Assembly (NCBI GenBank): GCA_021201665.1
Contig: JAJQEO010000065.1
Span: forward strand, 1 to 64,000
From: Lachnospiraceae bacterium
GTDB taxonomy: Bacteria; Bacillota; Clostridia; Lachnospirales; Lachnospiraceae
Length of the DNA: 64,000 bases
Direction: 5' to 3'
Shown here: in pieces, positions 1 through 9,976 of the stretch
Position numbering within the stretch: position 1 is the stretch's first letter
Layout: each line of letters begins with the position of its first letter
The notes under the pieces: model-generated
The model's input: the letters and a program-made list of their open reading frames with translations, nothing else
Databases searched by the model: none
Told to the model about the DNA's origin: nothing
Made by a program: the position numbers and the translations under genes

Positions 1-10
1 CTTTATTTAC

Positions 11-37
11 AATAAAAAAGAGAGGTGAAAACCTCTC
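11..37 (-). terminator. Rho-independent terminator on the minus strand
   Basis: A perfect 7-bp stem (GAGAGGT / ACCTCTC) closes a GAAA tetraloop. Read on the minus strand it is followed by a run of T (A-tract at 14-19 on the plus strand). No minus-strand gene that would use it is visible immediately to the right. Confidence 0.55.
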
Positions 38-410
38 CAAAGTGTTTAAGTGCCGCTCCGGTTTCTGCGCAACAACCGCAGAGTCCGGCATACCTCCACC
101 CTCTCCATATTAAAAGCTGCCGGGAAACGCAGCCGCAGGATGGAAGAGCTGCGGATTTTTGACGAGTAACTGGTAAAAAAATGGTTGATTTTTTTTATGA
201 AACGCAAATAATAAGGGTGTAAGGAGTCTGTTTTGTACAAATACAGATTTTGATGTGGGCTGGTCGTAAGACCCGGGTCCAACCTGTTCGGCGGGGAGAC
301 TCCCCGCCATTTTTGTATTCACTGTATTAAACTGTTTTACAGGTGAAGGAGAAATTGATGAAAGAACTGAGCATGAAAAGTTCACAAAAATGAATGTGAA
401 ATTTTGGTAA
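38..410. other. Intergenic region without a supported gene
   Basis: Apart from the plus-strand terminator at 290-315 I see no convincing coding sequence here. The short open frames on the minus strand have low-complexity composition, no ribosome site and no recognisable motif. Confidence 0.5.
290..315 (+). terminator. Rho-independent terminator
   Basis: The stem GGCGGGG / CCCCGCC (290-308, short AGACT-type loop) is followed by ATTTTTG. It probably ends a transcript entering from the left of the window. Confidence 0.65.
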
Positions 411-429
411 AATTTCGAGCCTCGAAATT
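411..429. promoter_or_regulatory. Perfect 19-bp palindrome, candidate operator
   Basis: AATTTCGAGCCTCGAAATT is a perfect 9+1+9 palindrome ending 12 bp upstream of the -35 box at 442. Its symmetry and position fit a dimeric regulator site controlling the leader-protein operon. The regulator is not identifiable from the sequence. Confidence 0.5.
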
Positions 430-441
430 GCCGAAAATTCC

Positions 442-470
442 TTTACAATCGGCCCAAACTGGCGTATATT
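442..470 (+). promoter_or_regulatory. Sigma-A type promoter of the leader-protein operon
   Basis: TTTACA (442-447), a 17-bp spacer and TATATT (465-470). The implied leader RNA is about 70 nt and contains an imperfect CCTGCC/GGCGGG hairpin before the first gene at 547. Confidence 0.6.
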
Positions 471-546
471 TATAACAAATATTGTAACGTTGGTCTTCCT
501 GCCGGGCGTGAAAAGGCGGGACAGAGAATTAGAAAGGTGAAAAGAG

Positions 547-924
547 ATGAGGGATACATACATAAAACCTCTGATCCTGGCGGAGGATGATTTGGCGGAG
601 GGCGTGTATACCGCGAGCGGAAGCGGGAACACCAGCTATAGTATCTCATCGGCCGGAAGCTGGGGAAATGGCGATTCTACCAGTACAGCTCAGTTCAGCG
701 TGACGATTGATAATTCTGGAGGTAGCGCTACAGATACATGGACGGTTACCTTGAGTGCGTCAGGAGGCAGCCTGCAGAGTATTAGTGGATCGTGGGTATA
801 CAGCAGTTCAGGCCAGGCATCGGTTTCCTGCAGTTCCAGTCAGGTAATTATCAGCGGTACCGGCACGTCGGCATCAGGAGGATTTCAGGTAGTTTATACC
901 GGAGACAGTCTGACGTTGAGCTGA
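547..924 (+). CDS. Small leader-bearing Ser/Gly-rich beta-protein (candidate exported precursor)
   Basis: A 125-residue protein of no family I can name. Residues 1-25 form a conserved polar leader of pattern Y-x-x-P-x-I-L-A-x-D-x-[IL]-x-E-G-V-Y-T-A-S-G, shared almost exactly with the next gene. The rest is extremely rich in Ser, Thr, Gly and Val with alternating hydrophobic residues, as in an extracellular beta-sandwich. There is no hydrophobic core for a Sec signal peptide, yet A-S-G at the leader end has small residues at -3 and -1, as leader or signal peptidases like. The start has a good ribosome site (AAAGGTG). Downstream come a second paralogue, an ABC exporter, a PqqD-domain protein and an S24/S26 peptidase, which suggests leader recognition, cleavage and export. 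That role is inference. Confidence 0.7.
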   Translation: MRDTYIKPLILAEDDLAEGVYTASGSGNTSYSISSAGSWGNGDSTSTAQFSVTIDNSGGSATDTWTVTLSASGGSLQSISGSWVYSSSGQASVSCSSSQVIISGTGTSASGGFQVVYTGDSLTLS

Positions 925-1014
925 TTTGATCGGAGATTGTTGTGGTTTCTGAGAAATAATGGAGAGTTTGTGGGCAATACAATTGAATAAAAGTAAAGGA
1001 AAGAGGGCGTAATG

Positions 1015-1425
1015 ATGAATAAAAGATATGCAAGGCCAGTAATCCTGGCAAATGATGAGATTTCAGAGGGCGTGTATACGGCGAGCGGCACGGACTGCTA
1101 TACGGTGACTTACAATATTCACCAGACCCCGGAGACGGGCAGGGGTGATTACCGGATTCAGATAAATGGGGTACACTCCGCGACACACCACAGCACAGCG
1201 CAGACGCTGGTGATTACCTTTAATCAGGCAGTCACCTATGTATCATCGAACGGATCGCTTGCTTCCGGGGATGGTACAGCTACATTGTCTGTCAACTATG
1301 CTTATCATAACAATGCGACAGACAATATTGGCCTTGGTGATCTGGTTGTTGAAGCAGATCAGGGTCTTGCGGTTACCAATGCATATATTGTATGTAATAT
1401 GACCTGCAGCCAGCATGATTCATGA
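1015..1425 (+). CDS. Second leader-bearing beta-protein, paralogue of the preceding gene
   Basis: A 136-residue protein with the same N-terminal leader (RPVILAND...SEGVYTASG) and a different C-terminal body. The body has patches such as TPETGRGDYRIQINGVH, a beta-strand pattern and three Cys residues. I recall similar uncharacterised proteins from Lachnospiraceae but can give no function. Two ATGs are possible (1012, 1015). The second is chosen because it makes the leader align residue for residue with the paralogue and gives better spacing to AGAGG. It lies 90 bp after the first gene in the same direction, so the two are probably co-transcribed and end at the hairpins at 1441-1510. Confidence 0.68.
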   Translation: MNKRYARPVILANDEISEGVYTASGTDCYTVTYNIHQTPETGRGDYRIQINGVHSATHHSTAQTLVITFNQAVTYVSSNGSLASGDGTATLSVNYAYHNNATDNIGLGDLVVEADQGLAVTNAYIVCNMTCSQHDS

Positions 1426-1440
1426 ATATTACATTTATGT

Positions 1441-1471
1441 TCTGCCCGCTCCACGGAAAGGAGTGGGCAGA
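1441..1471 (+). other. Strong RNA hairpin after the leader-protein genes
   Basis: TCTGCCC-G-CTCC pairs with GGAG-T-GGGCAGA across an ACGGAAA loop. No T-run follows directly, so it may be an mRNA 3' stabiliser placed before the terminator at 1478. Confidence 0.5.
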
Positions 1472-1477
1472 TGAAAA

Positions 1478-1510
1478 AGGAAAGCTTCAGACAGAGGCTT
1501 CCTTTTTTTT
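1478..1510 (+). terminator. Rho-independent terminator of the leader-protein operon
   Basis: An imperfect stem between GGAAAGCTTC and GAGGCTTCC is followed by eight T residues (1503-1510). Confidence 0.6.
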
Positions 1511-1515
1511 ACTCT

Positions 1516-1677
1516 TTACCCCATCAAAATTATCTCATCCATCAAAAACTGGCGGATGCCGATCGTGACGAGTTCGTATTTATCATAGCGCGGCTTTTTC
1601 CCCTCTCTCACATCAATGAATTTTTTACGGAAAAAATACAAGCGTAAATGTGGTATCGCAGGAACATTTATGTTATA
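1516..1677 (-). pseudogene. C-terminal gene remnant, family not recognised
   Basis: The minus strand encodes about 53 residues with natural protein character (for example RLYFFRKKFIDVREGKKPRY then DKYELVTIGIRQFLMDEI) up to a TAA at 1516-1518. No start codon lies in the open frame: a stop lies just upstream at 1678-1680. I read it as the surviving C-terminus of a decayed gene. It sits back to back with another remnant at 1732. An extended -10 (TGTTATACT, 1671-1679) on the plus strand overlaps its 5' edge and could drive the downstream genes. Confidence 0.4.
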
Positions 1678-1731
1678 CTACGATGCATAGAAATGACTGG
1701 CTGTTTATACAGCATTTAGACGGAGGCCTTT

Positions 1732-1905
1732 ATGAAATCTTTCAATACATCAGTTGCCTGTGTCCCGGAAAAGCACTATATGGTAGACATGACTGGCCGG
1801 GTAAACCAGATTATTGATTCACTGATTCGGGAAAATAAATATTTTACGATCGGCAGTCACGATTTGGAAAGTAATGGAAAAAGAATCCGTGAAGTGATTG
1901 TCTGA
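1732..1905 (+). pseudogene. Remnant of an AAA-ATPase-like (AAA-ATPase_like / PD-(D/E)XK nuclease) protein
   Basis: A 57-codon frame with a strong ribosome site (GGAGG 6 bp upstream). Residues 1-40 match my recollection of the N-terminus of the Clostridial AAA-ATPase_like family: ...CxPEKHYMVDxTxRVxQI...KYFTI. In full-length members this is followed at once by a Walker region (NRARQYGKTTT). Here it jumps to an unrelated 17-residue tail and a stop, so the ATPase core has been lost by internal deletion. It lies 31 bp upstream of the ABC exporter and may be translated, so a repurposed small peptide cannot be excluded. Confidence 0.5.
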
Positions 1906-1936
1906 TCAATGACAGGATGAGGCGTGCAGAAAACAA

Positions 1937-3841
1937 ATGAAAGAGCGGCTGGCGTTTTACTGGGGGCGCATCAGGGCGGGGCGCCTGAAAGAATTTATCG
2001 AGCAAACGAAGTGGATTTACTCCTATGCGAGGCGGTACTGGCTGCCAATGGTTTTTTATACGGCACTCGGACTGACGGGGACGGTGGTGTCGCTGCTGTC
2101 CAGTCTGGTGTCGCGCGATCTGGTGGATATTATCACCGGGCACGAGACTGGTCTGGTAGTGCAGACGTTTTGCATGATGATCGGGCTGAATATCGGCAAT
2201 ACGATCGTCAGCATGATCTCGAATTACGCGTCGGAATGGATCAGTATGAAGGTCGACGCGGAGATTAAATCCGAGATTTTTGAAAAGATTCTGGTGACGG
2301 ACTGGGAGAGCCTGACGAATTACCACACGGGCGACCTGCTGACGCGGTGGAGCTCGGACGCGAGCCAGATCTCCAGCGGCGTACTGAGCTTTATCCCGAA
2401 CGCGATCATTTATGTGTTCCGGTTTTTCAGCGCGTTTGCGATGGTTATCTATTATGACTGGACATTTGCAGTATTTGCGTTTCTGGGGATGCCGGTGTCG
2501 CTGCTGCTTTCCCGGAGACTGATGCGGCGCATGGTGAACAACAATAAGCGCAGCGCGGCCATGGGCGCGAAGATGTCCGGTTTCAATCAGGAAGCCTTTT
2601 CGAATATCCAGACGATCAAGGCGTTCGGGCTGATCTCGATGTATGTGCAGCATTTAAAGGATCTGCAAAAGGAATACATAGATATGAAGCTGGATTTCCA
2701 GCGGATGTCCGTCTGGACGTCGCTGCTTCTGACAACAGTTGGGCTGGTGGTTTCTTATGCCAGCTATGGCTGGGGTATTTACCGGGTCTGGAGCGGGGCC
2801 ATCAGCTACGGCACGATGACGATGTTTCTGTCGCTCTCCGGTACGCTGACCGGAGCGCTCAGCAACCTCACCTCACTGGTGCCGAGCGCGATCACCCTGA
2901 CGACCTCCGCCGGCAGGCTGATGGATATCGTCGAGATGCCGCGGGAGGATTACAGCAACGCGCCGGAAGTGCAGGACTTCATGAACCGCAACAGAACGGA
3001 GGGCATCAGCCTGTATGCCGAACATATCCGCTATGCGTATCAGAACGGCACGCTGGTGTTTGAGAACGCGACGTTCTATGCCCGACCGCATGAGATTGTG
3101 GCGCTGGTCGGCCCGTCCGGCGAGGGGAAGACAACGATGCTGCGGCTGGTGCTCGCGCTGATGCCGGTGAAGGAAGGAAGTCTGACACTGTATGGCGGAG
3201 GAGCGGCGGCAGCGGGAACCGAACTTGTCAGCGAAGAGGCGGCAGGGAACAGACCTGTCAGCGAGGGTACGGCGGAGACCGAATCTGTCAGTGCTGAGGG
3301 TCATGTGCTGCAAGACAGTATCGGAAAAATGGACGGAGAAATGCCGGACTGCATCCCCATGACACCGGCCGCGCGGATGATTTTCTCCTATGTGCCGCAG
3401 GGAAATACGATGTTTTCCGGCACGATCGCGGGAAATATGCGCAATGTCAAGGAGGACGCGACGGATGAGGAGATCGTGGAAGCACTGAAAATGGCCTGCG
3501 CATGGGACTTCGTAGAAAAACTGCCGGATGGAATTTACAGTGAGATCAAGGAACGCGGCGGCGGGTTTTCCGAAGGGCAGGCGCAGCGGCTTTCCATTGC
3601 CAGGGCACTTTTGCGGAAATCGCCGATCCTTTTGCTGGACGAGGCGACCTCCGCGCTGGACGTTGCGACTGAACGGAAGCTTCTGCGCAACATCATGAGT
3701 GATGAATATCCGCGTACCTGCATTGTGACGACGCACCGGCCTACCGTGCTTACGATCTGCGACCGCGTGTACGCGATTCGGAACCGGAAGTGTGAGGTGC
3801 TGGGTACGGAGGAAGTAGAGCGGATGATCAAGGACTTCTAA
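1937..3841 (+). CDS. ABC exporter, fused membrane and ATPase domains
   Basis: A 634-residue half-transporter. An ABC_membrane region of about six helices spans residues 30-310. The nucleotide-binding domain begins near 362 with Walker A GPSGEGKTT (about 391), a Q-loop (SYVPQGN), a variant signature FSEGQAQR (about 543) in place of LSGGQ, Walker B ILLLDEAT (about 564) and switch His in TTHR. There is no N-terminal C39 peptidase domain, so any cargo leader must be cut by another enzyme; a candidate is the S24/S26 peptidase at 5173. Between Walker A and the Q-loop (about residues 417-475) lies an unusual insertion with degenerate Val-Ser-Glu-Gly repeats. The stop codon overlaps that of the convergent gene by 4 bp. 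The export role is inferred from the family; the cargo from the neighbourhood. Confidence 0.88.
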   Translation: MKERLAFYWGRIRAGRLKEFIEQTKWIYSYARRYWLPMVFYTALGLTGTVVSLLSSLVSRDLVDIITGHETGLVVQTFCMMIGLNIGNTIVSMISNYASEWISMKVDAEIKSEIFEKILVTDWESLTNYHTGDLLTRWSSDASQISSGVLSFIPNAIIYVFRFFSAFAMVIYYDWTFAVFAFLGMPVSLLLSRRLMRRMVNNNKRSAAMGAKMSGFNQEAFSNIQTIKAFGLISMYVQHLKDLQKEYIDMKLDFQRMSVWTSLLLTTVGLVVSYASYGWGIYRVWSGAISYGTMTMFLSLSGTLTGALSNLTSLVPSAITLTTSAGRLMDIVEMPREDYSNAPEVQDFMNRNRTEGISLYAEHIRYAYQNGTLVFENATFYARPHEIVALVGPSGEGKTTMLRLVLALMPVKEGSLTLYGGGAAAAGTELVSEEAAGNRPVSEGTAETESVSAEGHVLQDSIGKMDGEMPDCIPMTPAARMIFSYVPQGNTMFSGTIAGNMRNVKEDATDEEIVEALKMACAWDFVEKLPDGIYSEIKERGGGFSEGQAQRLSIARALLRKSPILLLDEATSALDVATERKLLRNIMSDEYPRTCIVTTHRPTVLTICDRVYAIRNRKCEVLGTEEVERMIKDF

Positions 3842-5073
3842 GTGTGTGCGGCGTCAATCTGTCCTTTCATATAGATCGCAGCCTCATCCTCCTTTGTGCA
3901 GCTAAGATGCCGGATGGGCACGAGAGATGAGAGAGCATGGGCGAATTGGAGATTGATCTCCAGCTGCCCGCGTGTCCATACTGGCGAGATAAAACGTTGC
4001 GAGAGAAGCAGCACCTGCCGATCCGGTCCCGGGGTCAGGCAGAGGTTGTGCCTGGCCTGCTTTAAAAGAATAATTCCGCCGAGCGGATAGTCTTCTGTTG
4101 TCGAGGTACCGGAGGTTCCGCACCAGGGAAGGCCGCAGACCATGGGCTGTTCATTCTGGATGGTGAGCAGGTTCAGGTCACCATTTAAAATGGGGGTCTC
4201 AAACAGACGATTCCAGATCTCCGTGTGTGTGGATTTTCCGGCGCCGGAATGTCCGGAAAAGAGCCAGGCTTTTCCCTGATACAGGATAGAAGCGGAGTGC
4301 AGGGCAAATATTCCGCGCTTTTGCGCCAGATACAGATACGCCAGGCGAATGGCGTGAAAAAGCTCCGTGACGAGCGGTTCTTCAAAGGGCGGAGTACAGA
4401 AAAACCGCGCCGCTGCCCCGTCTTTGGAAAGATGGACCTCCCGGATCTGCGGTGCCTGCGGAAAATGAAGGAGATATCTGTCCCGGCAGTCCTGCACGGT
4501 CAGCTCTGGATGATGGATGAGAAAAGGAGCGTCCGCTAAACTGTCGCCGGGAAGTGCCGTGGCGATTTCAACCGTCAGATCAGCCTCATTCCGGGGTGGG
4601 CAGAAGAAAGGCTCGAATTCCGGCGCAAAGGCAGAAGCCGGGCCGACAAGACGCACCGAGAGACCGCCGATTTCCGCAAAATGCACCGAGAGTCCGCCAA
4701 TTTCCGCAAAATGCTCTTGCGGTGAGGGGAGGGCATCGGTAATTTCATGGTTTTCTGCCGGGCGATCTGCGGGGGAAACAGGCGGAGCCGCGCAGGCTTC
4801 CGCTGGCAGAATTCCAAGAGCAGTCAGCTGCGCCAGAAATTCGTCCAGGTCCCTCTTAAACTGAGGCAATTCCTGTTCGGCTGCCTGATAGTGCGCCGCG
4901 AACGCTGACAGAAGCTCCTCCCTGGTCGGATCGTTCTGAAGCTGTTCCCAGAGGAAGGCACCAGTTTCATTGACAAGAATGCCTCTTTTGAGGTCAGCGA
5001 CGGCCTGACCGAAGGGCAGGATGTATGGGGTTCCTGCAATGGTCTGCAGTGTCCAGCATTTGTCAGGCTTCAT
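3838..5073 (-). CDS. PqqD-domain / HprK-related kinase-like protein
   Basis: A 411-residue two-domain protein. Residues 1-95 resemble the PqqD fold (RiPP recognition element): CWTLQTIAGTPYILPFG, GILVNETGAFLW and a helical tail. The C-terminal half resembles HPr-kinase-related proteins, with P-loop SGHSGAGKSTHTEIW (about 274), then ILNGDLNLL and the GLPWCG signature typical of HprK-related kinases in peptide gene clusters. Between them is a Pro/Ala-rich linker containing an exact tandem duplication of HFAEIGGLSV (two 30-nt copies, 4653-4712). The start at 5073 is chosen over 5148 because GGGAG precedes it and PqqD homology begins there. PqqD domains bind leader peptides, so this protein may recognise the EGVYTASG leaders of the 547 and 1015 genes. 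The kinase activity is unproven. Confidence 0.78.
   Translation of the reverse strand: MKPDKCWTLQTIAGTPYILPFGQAVADLKRGILVNETGAFLWEQLQNDPTREELLSAFAAHYQAAEQELPQFKRDLDEFLAQLTALGILPAEACAAPPVSPADRPAENHEITDALPSPQEHFAEIGGLSVHFAEIGGLSVRLVGPASAFAPEFEPFFCPPRNEADLTVEIATALPGDSLADAPFLIHHPELTVQDCRDRYLLHFPQAPQIREVHLSKDGAAARFFCTPPFEEPLVTELFHAIRLAYLYLAQKRGIFALHSASILYQGKAWLFSGHSGAGKSTHTEIWNRLFETPILNGDLNLLTIQNEQPMVCGLPWCGTSGTSTTEDYPLGGIILLKQARHNLCLTPGPDRQVLLLSQRFISPVWTRGQLEINLQFAHALSSLVPIRHLSCTKEDEAAIYMKGQIDAAHT
4653..4712 (-). repeat. In-frame 2 x 30-nt tandem duplication
   Basis: Two adjacent 30-nt units (4653-4682, 4683-4712) differ at two positions and encode HFAEIGGLSV twice in the interdomain linker of the PqqD/HprK-like protein. 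Confidence 0.85.
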
Positions 5074-5172
5074 AATAATTTTCTCCCTTGAATAAGATGT
5101 AATTTTATATTTTGTCATTATTTGTTTCTCGATGGTATCATTACGCAAAAAACAGGAGATCGTACGCCGGAT

Positions 5173-5634
5173 ATGGAAAAACAGAAAGCAGATATCGAAC
5201 AGCTTCTTGCCGAAGGGCGGGTCATTCAGTTAAAACCGCGCGGAACCAGCATGTACCCTATGTTTGTGGAGGGGCGTGATGAAGCGGTCATCGATCCAAT
5301 TAAAAAGGTCACTCAGGCAGACGGCAGTCTGCGCCTGCGAAGGGGCGATGTTGTTCTTTACCGGCGCGACGGCGGAATACTGGTGCTTCACCGGATCAGC
5401 CGGTGCGCACAGGAAGGCTATTATCTGGTGGGCGACAATCAAAGCGTGGAGGAGGGGCCGATCCGGGGCGGCCAGATCCTGGGGATTCTGACCGGTTTTA
5501 TCCGAAAGGGACACTACTGCCCGGCCCGTCATCCGGTTTATCAGCTGGCAAGCCGGATCTGGCTGATCCTGCTCCCGGTGCGTCCGAAGATCACACGGAC
5601 TCTGCACCGGATAAAACGATCTGTAAACCCGTAG
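5173..5634 (+). CDS. S24/S26-family peptidase
   Basis: A 153-residue protein with the S24/S26 signature. The nucleophile Ser lies in PRGTSMYPMF (S-x-M-x-P) near residue 30, followed by RRGDVVLYRR and VLHRI, then GDNQ. It lacks a clear catalytic Lys. A His-bearing VLHRI segment sits where SipW-type (ER-type) signal peptidases carry His. A single hydrophobic segment near the C-terminus (LASRIWLILL) may anchor it. The ATG at 5173 is preferred over 5122: it follows AGGAG, although the 14-nt gap is long. It is divergent from the PqqD/HprK-like gene with 100 bp between them. Inferred role: removal of the leader of the small beta-proteins after A-S-G. Confidence 0.75.
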   Translation: MEKQKADIEQLLAEGRVIQLKPRGTSMYPMFVEGRDEAVIDPIKKVTQADGSLRLRRGDVVLYRRDGGILVLHRISRCAQEGYYLVGDNQSVEEGPIRGGQILGILTGFIRKGHYCPARHPVYQLASRIWLILLPVRPKITRTLHRIKRSVNP

Positions 5635-8036: not shown

Positions 8037-9149
8037 CTATATTTTCTTTTGCCCGAAAATCTTTTTTACATACCCGATCTGTGAGGCCATCGCCAGCAGC
8101 AGATGGTCGGCCAGCGTGACTGCGGTCATTGCCTCAACGACCGGGACTGCCCGTGCGACAATGATGGGGTCATGTCTGCCGTGGATGCTTTCTACATGAC
8201 ATTTGCCGTCCCTGCCGAGCATGCTCTGCGGCTGTGCGATGGAGGGTGTCGGCTTGAACGAGGCGCGAAGGAAAAGTGGTGCGCCGTCACTGATCCCGCC
8301 GAGCATGCCCCCGCTGTGATTGCTGGCCTTGTACGGGACGCCGTCCTCCCCGCAAAGATAAGCGTCGTTATTCTCGGAGCCCTTCGCCTTCTGCACGGCA
8401 GTGCCGTCGCCGATCTCCACGGCCTTGACAGCGCCGATGGACATCAATGCCTTCGCCAGGTTGGCATCCAGCTTCTCAAAGCAAGGCTCGCCAAGGCCTG
8501 CCGGCACCCGGTTTACAATACACTCCACGGCTCCTCCGCTGGAGTCCTTGGACGCAATGCACTGCTCCAGCCAGGCCAGAGCCTCCTTTGTAGCTTCTTT
8601 ATCCGGCATCCGCACCGGACTTTCCTCAGCGTAGCTAAGATCCATCCGCTCCCGGTCAATGCTCACAGGGCCGATGGCGCTGACATAGGCATTTACAGTG
8701 ATTCCGATTTCTGCTAAAAGCTTCAGCGAGACTGCGCCCGCAGCCACCCGGCCAATCGTTTCGCGCCCGGAGGAACGTCCCCCGCCGCGATAATCGCGGA
8801 TGCCATATTTTTCATCGTAGGTATAATCCGCATGGCCGGGGCGGTAAAGCTGCGCAATCGTCCCATAATCCCTGGAACGCTGGTCCTGGTTGCGCACGAG
8901 CAGGGAGATCGGAGTCCCGGTCGTAAGCCCCTCAAAGGTGCCGGAGAGGATCTCCACCTGGTCAGATTCTGCCCGGGCGGTCGTATACCTGTTCTGTCCG
9001 GGCTTCCGCCGGTCGAGCTGCTTCTGAATATCCTCCTCCGAGAGTGGAATTCCGGCCGGACAGCCGTCAATCACGACGCCGATCCCCTTTCCGTGGGATT
9101 CCCCCCAGGTGCTGATTTTAAAAATTGTGCCAAATGTAGAACCTGCCAT
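8037..9149 (-). CDS. aroC: Chorismate synthase
   Basis: Converts 5-enolpyruvylshikimate 3-phosphate to chorismate using reduced FMN; final step of the shikimate pathway. The 370 residues are full length. Motifs: STFGTIFKISTWGESHGKGIGVVIDGCPAG at the N-terminus (described by its GESHG core), the QLDRRKPGQNRYTTAR region, YRGGGRSSGRETIGRVAAGA, and the C-terminal GRHDPIIVARAVPVVEAM. AAGGAGGGG lies upstream of the start. It stands alone on the minus strand, convergent with the lactonase gene. Another shikimate-type enzyme lies at 39291, far away. Confidence 0.97.
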   Translation of the reverse strand: MAGSTFGTIFKISTWGESHGKGIGVVIDGCPAGIPLSEEDIQKQLDRRKPGQNRYTTARAESDQVEILSGTFEGLTTGTPISLLVRNQDQRSRDYGTIAQLYRPGHADYTYDEKYGIRDYRGGGRSSGRETIGRVAAGAVSLKLLAEIGITVNAYVSAIGPVSIDRERMDLSYAEESPVRMPDKEATKEALAWLEQCIASKDSSGGAVECIVNRVPAGLGEPCFEKLDANLAKALMSIGAVKAVEIGDGTAVQKAKGSENNDAYLCGEDGVPYKASNHSGGMLGGISDGAPLFLRASFKPTPSIAQPQSMLGRDGKCHVESIHGRHDPIIVARAVPVVEAMTAVTLADHLLLAMASQIGYVKKIFGQKKI

Positions 9150-9582
9150 AGCGGCTGCCCCTCCTTATATCTTATCAAGCGCTCGTATTATTGGAAACGA
9201 CCTGAGCCGATTCTTTTTGTATGCACAGAACCGTGCAAGGTATATCCCATGCGAAGCGTGGGATGCCACCCGGCTATAAAAAACATTAATGAAAGCGTGA
9301 ATCTTGCATTGTGCGCTAAAAGTCTGTGCATTTACTTTCCCGCAGGGTGAGATACCGTGCCTGAATAAGTATAGTACAAATCAGAAGCAGATGGCAAGCA
9401 GAAAATGGCAAGTATAGCAATTGGAAATATGGAAACATGGAAAAACAATGAAAAATGCTTGTCTAACCGCAACAAAACGCAGTTGACCGGAACGAGAACG
9501 GCTTAAGTGCATATTCTGATAATAAGAAAATCAAGAGAAGCCCGGTGACGGATTACCGGGTTCTTTCGGGGAGAATGACTTT
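9150..9582. other. Intergenic region, no gene seen
   Basis: 433 bp without a supported gene. It holds a hairpin ATCCCATGC-GAA-GCGTGGGAT (9244-9264), an A-rich stretch (9360-9460), and a short CCCGGT/ACCGGG hairpin at 9541-9560 just before the LysM gene. Confidence 0.5.
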
Positions 9583-9765
9583 ATGCAGACAGCCTGCAGC
9601 AAATACGGAATCATCCATACAGTAGAGGAAGGAGAAACTCTGTACCTGATAGGGAAAATGTATCATGTGAAGGTTTCCTCCATCATCTACGCGAATCCGC
9701 ACTTATGCATCTACAATCTGCAGCCGGGGGATCAGATCTGCATCCCGAAGATGTGCGGCGCCTGA
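9583..9765 (+). CDS. LysM-domain mini-protein
   Basis: A 60-residue protein that is little more than one LysM repeat: HTVEEGETLYLIGKMYHVKV then ANPHLCIYNLQPGDQICIP. LysM binds peptidoglycan or chitin N-acetylglucosamine. There is no signal peptide, so export is unclear. Free-standing cytosolic-looking LysM peptides of this size (SafA or YkuD-independent types) do occur in Clostridia, some linked to spore coat. GGGGAG lies 9 bp upstream of the ATG. It has two Cys near the ends. Confidence 0.75.
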   Translation: MQTACSKYGIIHTVEEGETLYLIGKMYHVKVSSIIYANPHLCIYNLQPGDQICIPKMCGA

Positions 9766-9823
9766 CTATTTGTTTTATGTAAAAAGCTTTATGAAAAAAA
9801 TGTTAAGAAACGCAGCCGCCCGA

Positions 9824-9852
9824 TTGACAAAAAGAAGCGTCAATTCTATAAT
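9824..9852 (+). promoter_or_regulatory. Perfect consensus sigma-A promoter
   Basis: TTGACA (9824-9829), exactly 17 bp, TATAAT (9847-9852): both boxes are full consensus. A TTGAC/GTCAA inverted repeat lies across the -35 and spacer. Confidence 0.75.
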
Positions 9853-9873
9853 GGCAACGTTGACAGTTACCTG

Positions 9874-9904
9874 CTGCCGGACTGGGATGAGCCGGTAGTT
9901 TTTT
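9874..9904 (+). terminator. Attenuator-like terminator directly after the promoter
   Basis: CTGCCGG (9874-9880) pairs with CCGGTAG (9892-9898), followed by six T. It begins about 15 nt after the predicted transcription start and precedes the rhomboid-like gene by 72 bp. Most transcripts from the consensus promoter may stop here, giving a tiny RNA, with read-through into 9977. Confidence 0.55.
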
Positions 9905-9976
9905 CGGATACAGGCAACAGGAAGCTGCAGAATTTCATAAGACATCTGATCAGGAGAGAAAGAGAAGAGGAATACT

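Follow-up and report, generated by a model that had tools for sequence, protein, structure and literature searches.

A Lachnospiraceae locus with two leader-bearing small proteins probably encodes an LPP-type system for maturing and exporting folded proteins

Which machinery reads the common leader of two small proteins whose bodies do not match each other in sequence? This question was raised by a gene cluster at the start of a 64,000-nucleotide stretch of DNA from a Lachnospiraceae bacterium (contig JAJQEO010000065.1 of assembly GCA_021201665.1, positions 1 to 64,000, forward strand; hereafter the window). The window spans the opening 64 kb of contig C74, one of the 121 contigs of a 4.71 Mb assembly. 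A first-pass annotation, made from the sequence alone, had proposed an undescribed system in which a PqqD domain binds the leader, a serine peptidase of the S24/S26 kind cuts after A-S-G, and an ABC transporter exports the cargo. The genes that it listed are present, but a paper of May 2026 describes the same machinery for linear polyphosphorylated peptides (LPP), the products of lppA-K-B-S-D-N of Paenibacillus alginolyticus (PMC13381572). The comparisons presented here suggested that the window locus is probably an LPP-type maturation and export system that has been adapted to whole folded proteins, with the order of steps proposed below. Judged by its genes and leaders, it is a system of the LPP kind whose architecture, leader grammar, and class of cargo are new. 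The locus contains the following features.

56 to 169, plus strand: last 37 codons and stop of an LppN-type nucleotidyltransferase gene (NTP_transf_5, PF14907); the remainder lies on contig C38 (374 to 1822, minus strand)
547 to 924, plus strand: precursor 1, with the leader at 547 to 615 (through Ala23), a predicted cut before Ser24 (616 to 618), and a CBM2-like core
1015 to 1425 (start at 1012 or 1015), plus strand: precursor 2, with the leader at 1015 to 1083, a predicted cut before Ser24 (1084 to 1086), and a predicted beta-sandwich core with a CBM2 fold
1937 to 3841, plus strand: MsbA-like ABC exporter of the LppD type, permease-ATPase without a C39 peptidase (Pfam ABC_membrane, 2.6e-36; ABC_tran, 5.1e-20)
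3838 to 5073, minus strand: PqqD (RRE)-HprK-like kinase fusion, 411 aa, with PqqD at residues 1 to about 90 (Pfam PqqD, 6.4e-11)
5173 to 5634, plus strand: SipW/LppS-like leader peptidase with Ser-His-Asp and no N-terminal membrane helix (sigpep_I_arch, 2.9e-5, below its cut-off)

The two leader-bearing open reading frames (ORFs) were confirmed. Their leaders are identical in 15 of 27 aligned columns, with an exact EGVYTASG, so the leader is indeed shared, but the earlier description of it as near-identical was a little strong. When protein 1 was used as a query against its own genome, protein 2 was the sole other significant match (E = 1.8e-5; the next matches were at 0.465 and 0.531). A leader hidden Markov model (HMM) matched 55 ORFs at E < 1e-4 among the 10,552 ORFs of 80 related loci, and it matched none in reversed ORFs, none in shuffled ORFs, and none of the 3,013 ORFs of 20 control regions. 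A chance resemblance was ruled out because all of the reversed, shuffled, and control-region counts were zero. The 80 loci were the best 80 of at least 562 relatives in a scan of named records with a model of the PqqD-kinase fusion (model A2), and 54 of them (L057 to L110) were treated as fusion-type. All of the control regions came from contigs with a leader gene or a related kinase and are therefore near controls. The best 12-residue Kyte-Doolittle means of the two leaders were 0.77 and 0.65; as the first-pass annotation had stated, there is no hydrophobic core, which ruled out ordinary Sec secretion.

The geometry of the leader was examined in precursors from L037 to L110 and the window (82 precursors, 76 unique; those of Butyrivibrio lie outside this set). 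Selection required the motif E-[GS]-[VI]-[YF]-x-[AGYS]-S-G, the HMM itself favors the spacing, and one HMM hit without the motif (ENVFASSG, at L049) was excluded. Within this selected set, the Ser of A-S-G followed the first residue of YxxP (Tyr, or Leu in one case) at a distance of 19 in 76 of 76 unique precursors. The position three residues ahead of the Ser was Tyr in 65 and Phe in 11, and the residue directly ahead of it was Ala in 71, Gly in 3, Ser in 1, and Tyr in 1. The comparison supported the proposal that this is a precursor family with a constant leader and variable cargo.

Where the leader would be cut was predicted from LPP, in which the leader reads YxxPxVLxHQxIxFETxxS, the precursors follow Px9Fx[T/A], and the cut falls directly after T-1 (PMC13381572). 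The window leader keeps YxxPx[VI], and P-x12-[YF]-x-A-S-G replaces Px9Fx[T/A]. Because P-x12-[YF]-x-A corresponds to the LPP motif that is cut right after T-1, the predicted cut is Y-x-A^S-G, between Ala23 and Ser24, and the Ser would be retained in the product. The first-pass annotation had instead placed the cut after A-S-G, in which case the S26 signal peptidase would remove all three residues. The constancy of the S and G would suit such a cut, as would the fit of A-x-G to the generic signal-peptidase rule, but the matching LPP motif sets the cut before the Ser and an N-terminal membrane helix is missing from the window enzyme; we consider removal of the whole A-S-G quite unlikely. In the literature searched, outside which lay preprints and most subscription papers, EGVYAASG, EGVYTASG, EGVFAASG, AEGVYAASG, and EGVYxASG were absent, and no description closer than the LPP paper (PMC13381572) was found.

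The fusion of PqqD with an HprK-like kinase was confirmed. The profile of the fused PqqD domain matched LppB in the PDB (9x8z) at E = 3e-4 and TbiB1 better, at 4.6e-5, and it matched the discrete RREs of other loci with an hhalign probability of 99.8. Residues N35, Y62, D75, and F79 of the window protein align with N33, Y60, D70, and F74 of LppB (LppB numbers counted by hand), which line or fix the bound leader (PMC13381572). Across 18 RRE domains, N35 and F79 never varied and D75 almost never did. The P-loop of the kinase is intact, and the P-loop, HSAS, NGDxN, and PWCGTS were invariant in 13 fusions. The window kinase matched NCBIfam HprK_rel_B at 0.025, under the cut-off of that family, and a phmmer comparison with the stand-alone kinase of L111, an LPP-like locus, gave a match at 5e-28. 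By analogy with LPP, the fusion would do the work of both LppB and LppK. In LPP, the leader is offered to LppS by LppB, which makes cleavage RRE-dependent, LppK puts several phosphates on Ser3, and unphosphorylated precursor is poorly cut in cells (PMC13381572). The earlier suggestion that HprK might energize the step was not borne out, as what the homologue LppK does is phosphorylate a Ser close to where the precursor is cut. Two side observations concern these domains. The linker of the fusion contains a tandem duplication of HFAEIGGLSV (window about 4650 to 4710). In addition, short histidine kinases in L046, L078, L085, L089, L095, and L185 have at their N-terminus a [YF]xxP motif like that of the leader (e.g., MEKKRYTKPQTI), some 40 residues ahead of the H-box; the motif was flagged in 7 of 13 histidine kinases, and in the two of L077 it is not N-terminal. 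Such a motif might be read by the RRE and serve as a sensor of precursor supply.

These data also bear on plain leader-dependent secretion, in which the leader, RRE, and peptidase would serve export only, the kinase domain would be a regulator or allosteric gate, and the cargo would stay unmodified. Large foldable cores may need no modification, and the nucleotidyltransferase was not found within the fetched stretch in 25 of the 54 fusion-type loci (some stretches were short). We nevertheless regard this explanation as unlikely, given the four invariant kinase motifs in 13 fusions, the LPP homologue that modifies a Ser near the cut, and an acceptor Ser in 76 of 76 precursors (the selection motif requires it, and the excluded HMM hit also has SG).

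The peptidase at 5173 to 5634 is of the S24/S26 kind, as annotated, and comparison pointed to an S26-type enzyme dedicated to leader removal. None of its Pfam or NCBIfam matches reached the curated cut-offs, but the putative catalytic Ser, His, and Asp lined up in all 21 sequences compared (15 from fusion-type loci and the window, and 6 of the discrete type). No hydrophobic stretch lies ahead of the catalytic Ser in the window enzyme. In L087, an LppS-like peptidase and NTP_transf_5 occur in one 577-aa ORF (8232 to 9962). The ABC protein showed only ABC_membrane and ABC_tran above the Pfam cut-offs and no C39 domain, in agreement with the first-pass annotation, and C39 double-glycine export was thereby ruled out. 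Its best NCBIfam match was MsbA_rel, under the cut-off, and comparison suggested that it is likely an exporter. A low-complexity insert in its ATPase domain (window about 3200 to 3370) splits the NCBIfam matches.

Do these genes belong together? The first-pass annotation had proposed co-occurrence of the leader with the PqqD-HprK, S24/S26, and ABC genes as a check. We searched 299 genomes of the family with a leader model built from two rows (A1, E <= 1e-3) and with model A2 of the fusion (E < 1e-100), in which the 12 rows from outside the window had been drawn from leader-hit neighborhoods. Each model matched 16 genomes. Leader and fusion occurred together in 15 of the 299 genomes, the leader without the fusion in 1 (G146, 68% complete), the fusion without the leader in 1 (G096), and neither in 282 (Fisher p = 3.5e-23, partly circular given the origin of A2). 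In G096, a divergent AEGIYAGSG ORF adjoins the fusion. The fusion lay within the fetched leader stretch in 12 of the 15 genomes, and the 13th (G000) has it in the window itself. A 25-row leader model built from the same genomes, and hence not independent of them (A3), matched 20 genomes at E <= 0.01; of these, G213 carries a divergent fusion about 4 kb from the match, and the partial matches in G047, G101, and G143 were taken as chance. Among 391 genomes of the class at E <= 1e-3, only G000 and G022 matched, with weak matches in G315, G355, and G445, and a class-wide leader family was rejected as nearly all lacked a match. The weak match in G315 (L177 to L179) reflects multi-copy peptides of 49 to 71 aa with a Y-x-K-P leader, SEDVITTSG, and a Tyr-Ser spacing of 19. 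No fusion, S26, or ABC match was found at 3 of the 4 places fetched there, and the peptides are perhaps another leader family.

The locus set gave a related picture, although it overlaps the 299-genome set (e.g., L057 and G012) and the two counts are not independent. Both domains lie in one ORF in 49 of the 54 fusion-type loci; of the others, L103 and L105 have long ORFs with an N-terminus under threshold, L104 and L107 are cut by a contig end, and L109 has two overlapping ORFs and hence is not a fusion. A leader gene was found in 43 of the 54 loci (40 by HMM, and 3 of Butyrivibrio by eye), and a leader, an S26, and an ABC gene were all present in 33. Among these loci, fusion and leader genes were found in the records of Anaerobutyricum hallii DSM 3353 (L079), Coprococcus catus VPIC661 (L084), Fusicatenibacter saccharivorans (L091), and Eubacterium plexicaudatum ASF492 (L060). 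The co-occurrence that the first-pass annotation had expected was observed, both in genomes and in loci. The case that it had named as refuting, leader genes that mostly lack the other genes, did not arise, as the fusion was present in 15 of 16 leader genomes.

What do the precursors carry, and in what setting? The cores span 53 to 147 residues and fall into 9 or more families, including two Cys-rich families (family 2, n = 11; family 3, n = 3). The bodies of precursors 1 and 2 did not match each other up to E = 10 (phmmer), as the first-pass annotation had implied in calling them unrelated; fold searches suggested otherwise, because both resemble the beta-sandwich of carbohydrate-binding module family 2 (CBM2). 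The predicted resemblance of the protein 2 core to a CBM2-type sandwich is clear and that of the protein 1 core is weak. Protein 1 scored 18.8 bits against CBM_2 (PF00553), under the curated cut-off of 24, and for protein 2 nothing matched CBM_2 up to E = 0.1. The protein 2 family, searched as a profile against the PDB, returned one chance-level row; it was the fold searches that gave CBM2. Integrin, adaptin, cohesin, and complement rows in those searches were set aside as general sandwich resemblance. Paired precursor genes with differing core types, as in the window, occur in L041, L053, L057 to L059, L065, L067, L071, L072 (three genes), L076, L086, L087, L093, and L094, and a two-component assembly is possible.

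The setting of the locus came into view at the window edge. The first-pass annotation had begun the locus at position 411; it begins earlier, in the nucleotidyltransferase gene at 56 to 169, and that gene, which supplies the fifth part type of LPP, had been missed, as had the polysaccharide surroundings, situated mostly beyond the window edge. The end of contig C38, reversed (485 to 55), is identical to window 55 to 485 in 431 of 431 bases, and no second full copy of this overlap was found elsewhere in the assembly. From it we infer a C38-C74 junction that would place the locus start upstream of the window edge. The 483-aa ORF on C38 matched PF14907 at 4.6e-26, and the translation of window 56 to 169 agrees with its C-terminus and stop. 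Farther along C38 are a Polysacc_synt flippase, a Stealth protein, two DUF4832/DUF4874 proteins, family 2 and group 1 glycosyltransferases, and PelG.

Other loci share this setting. NTP_transf_5 was present in 29 of the 54 fusion-type loci, and in 16 of 31 full-size loci compared with 1 of 20 control regions (L193; p = 6e-4); in 15 of the 40 loci with a leader, it was on the strand of a leader gene and no more than 400 nt away from it. Glycosyltransferase or Stealth genes were found in 30 of the 54 loci, and in 19 of 31 full-size loci compared with 3 of 20 control regions (p = 0.0014). Control region L193, which ends about 2.5 kb from the G135 fusion, supplied most of the control hits and was retained in the counts. 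A flippase family that resembles the C38 protein, a likeness read from the sequences by eye, occurs in 17 loci.

Because of the CBM2-like fold and the polysaccharide genes, we suggest the cell surface or exopolysaccharide as a possible destination of the product. The cores could instead be secreted antibacterial, bacteriocin-like proteins for which the leader system is the maturation route. That would suit the several core families, Cys-rich ones included, that share one leader without matching each other in sequence, and the LPP authors report patchy gain and loss typical of conflict genes (PMC13381572). However, the main cores resemble carbohydrate-binding modules, the neighbors are often polysaccharide genes, and an immunity-like gene was not noticed, although no search aimed at one was made; an antibacterial role seems very unlikely to us. 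A further idea is covalent protein-polysaccharide display, in which the N-terminal Ser would carry a handle of phosphate or sugar-phosphate and so allow the nucleotidyltransferase, with Stealth or glycosyltransferase partners, to couple or co-export the CBM-like proteins with the exopolysaccharide of the same locus. We offer this only tentatively and consider it rather unlikely.

Taken as an LPP-type system for folded proteins, the locus would work in five steps. The genes, constant leader, RRE contact and putative catalytic residues, co-occurrence, predicted CBM2-like fold, and polysaccharide setting were established by sequence comparison; the first three steps follow LPP biochemistry, and the last two are conjecture. 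First, the N-terminal PqqD domain of the fusion would bind the leader through YxxPxI. Second, the fused HprK-like domain would put one or more phosphates on Ser24 of A-S-G, the fixed leader length (19 residues, Tyr to Ser) presenting the invariant Ser to the kinase domain. As the RRE is fused to the kinase, phosphorylation would be the first committed step, which fits the poor cleavage of unphosphorylated LPP precursor. Third, the soluble S26 enzyme would cut after Ala (Y-x-A^S-G) and leave the modified Ser at the N-terminus. Fourth, the nucleotidyltransferase, perhaps with neighboring glycosyltransferases, might add a further group. Fifth, the MsbA-like ABC protein might export the CBM2-like beta-sandwich protein, which would act at the cell surface or in the exopolysaccharide.

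Several points weigh against this proposal. The genome-level test is partly circular because every one of the 12 non-window rows of the fusion model was taken from beside a leader hit in these genomes. The fusion of G135 is about 36 kb away from leaders that have S26 and ABC genes, in G240 the leader is on another contig, and G022, G029, and G034 have further leader genes apart from the fusion; leader genes in such positions may therefore be served in trans. The distant full-length fusions of G049 (8.6e-62) and G023 (8.3e-58) had no leader, S26, or ABC match in the 18 to 20 kb around them. No leader gene appeared in 11 of the 54 fusion-type loci; the kinase gene is no more than 2 kb from a contig end in L061, L075, L092, L098, and L109, and farther from one in L068, L080, L089, L097, L105, and L108. 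The conservation of the leader is partly built in by the selection motif, which holds most of E-G-V-Y-x-A-S-G, and by the spacing-favoring HMM, and the three Butyrivibrio leaders found by eye (FE[VA]P...AEGVFxGSG) have a spacing of 21. The cut site and the acceptor Ser are extrapolations from a system in which the phospho-Ser is S3 and the leader is 3 residues shorter, and the mechanism of the fusion group as a whole draws on LPP biochemistry. The proposal does not account for the passage of a foldable beta-sandwich protein through an MsbA-like exporter. Finally, the C38-C74 junction depends on the overlap and not on reads.

The window start contains further features that stand apart from these questions. 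Window 1 to 55 recurs exactly on C114 (its first 55 bases) and on C17 and is therefore probably an assembly tip rather than genomic context. Between the nucleotidyltransferase gene and precursor 1, window 256 to 305 (plus strand) matched the Rfam DUF3800-XI RNA at 63 bits (cut-off, 37.8), and an 85% partial copy of this stretch lies on C60. The first 41 or so residues of a short ORF at 1732 to 1905 matched 23 other places in the genome, 22 of them in ORFs of 513 to 591 aa. This ORF looks like a decayed gene start; a Pfam scan of the fragment gave no match, and we take the matched family to be an AAA ATPase.

If the idea of covalent display were true, this would be a protein-scale branch of ribosomally synthesized and post-translationally modified peptide (RiPP) biosynthesis that builds the cell surface of gut Lachnospiraceae. 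The work extends a pathway of RRE, kinase, and SipW-like peptidase, known from a peptide with a 45-residue core, to gut bacteria and folded domains some 100 residues long, and it adds a second bacterial group in which this pathway is linked with polysaccharide genes. Since the main cores look like carbohydrate-binding domains, it also offers a concrete guess at the purpose of LPP, which the authors left open (PMC13381572). A. hallii, C. catus, F. saccharivorans, and E. plexicaudatum are candidate test organisms.

How does the system compare with those already known? The window shares five part types with LPP, namely, the RRE, the HprK-like kinase, the SipW-like Ser-His-Asp peptidase, the NTP transferase, and the MsbA-like ABC protein. 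It also shares the YxxPx[VI] leader, the variable-core precursors (35 to 200 aa in LPP), and the polysaccharide setting, as LPP clusters occur in capsular polysaccharide loci (PMC13381572). The NTP transferase is called uncharacterized in PMC13381572, and its equation with PF14907 is our own. The RRE is discrete in LPP, whereas it forms the N-terminus of the kinase fusion in the window. The LPP leader is three residues shorter between the Pro and the aromatic residue and has FETxxS in place of EGV[YF]xASG, and the studied LPP core has 45 aa, whereas the cores here have 53 to 147 residues, the main ones being CBM2-like. The window system was not filed as LPP because it lacks the discrete RRE and the LPP leader motif, both of which were tested. 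Locus L111 (Thermincola) has an LPP-type precursor (YVKPMIINETEIQFETLVS) with discrete PqqD, HprK, S26, ABC, and NTP_transf_5 genes.

Fusion-type systems come mostly from Lachnospiraceae records. In a kinase tree of 87 rows, 56 fused kinases (and 2 cut by contig ends) fell on one side of a branch with support of 99/82 that was present in 98% of 200 bootstrap trees; bootstrapping of this tree, which contains no authentic LppK or LppB, was unsettled. The nearest discrete rows were L109, L184, and L185, and L111 fell elsewhere. By this tree, the fused kinases appear to be a separate, mostly Lachnospiraceae group on a distinct branch.

Paeninodin-like lasso clusters likewise combine an RRE (B1) that reads [Y/W]xxPx[L/V/I], an HprK-type kinase that tailors a core Ser, a nucleotidyltransferase, and an ABC protein (PMC13381572). 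Their kinase modifies a C-terminal Ser (PMC7533575). They differ by their cysteine peptidase B2 and macrolactam cyclase, a distinction drawn by description, as no model search for either was made here. CBM2 domains are modules of secreted enzymes, whereas the CBM2-like cores here belong to free-standing small proteins with a RiPP-type leader. In Bacillus, a SipW-type peptidase serves the export of TasA, a beta-rich extracellular matrix protein with a Sec signal peptide. The window resembles that system in its SipW-type peptidase and beta-rich proteins and differs from it in its leaders, which have no Sec core, and in the presence of RRE, kinase, and ABC genes.

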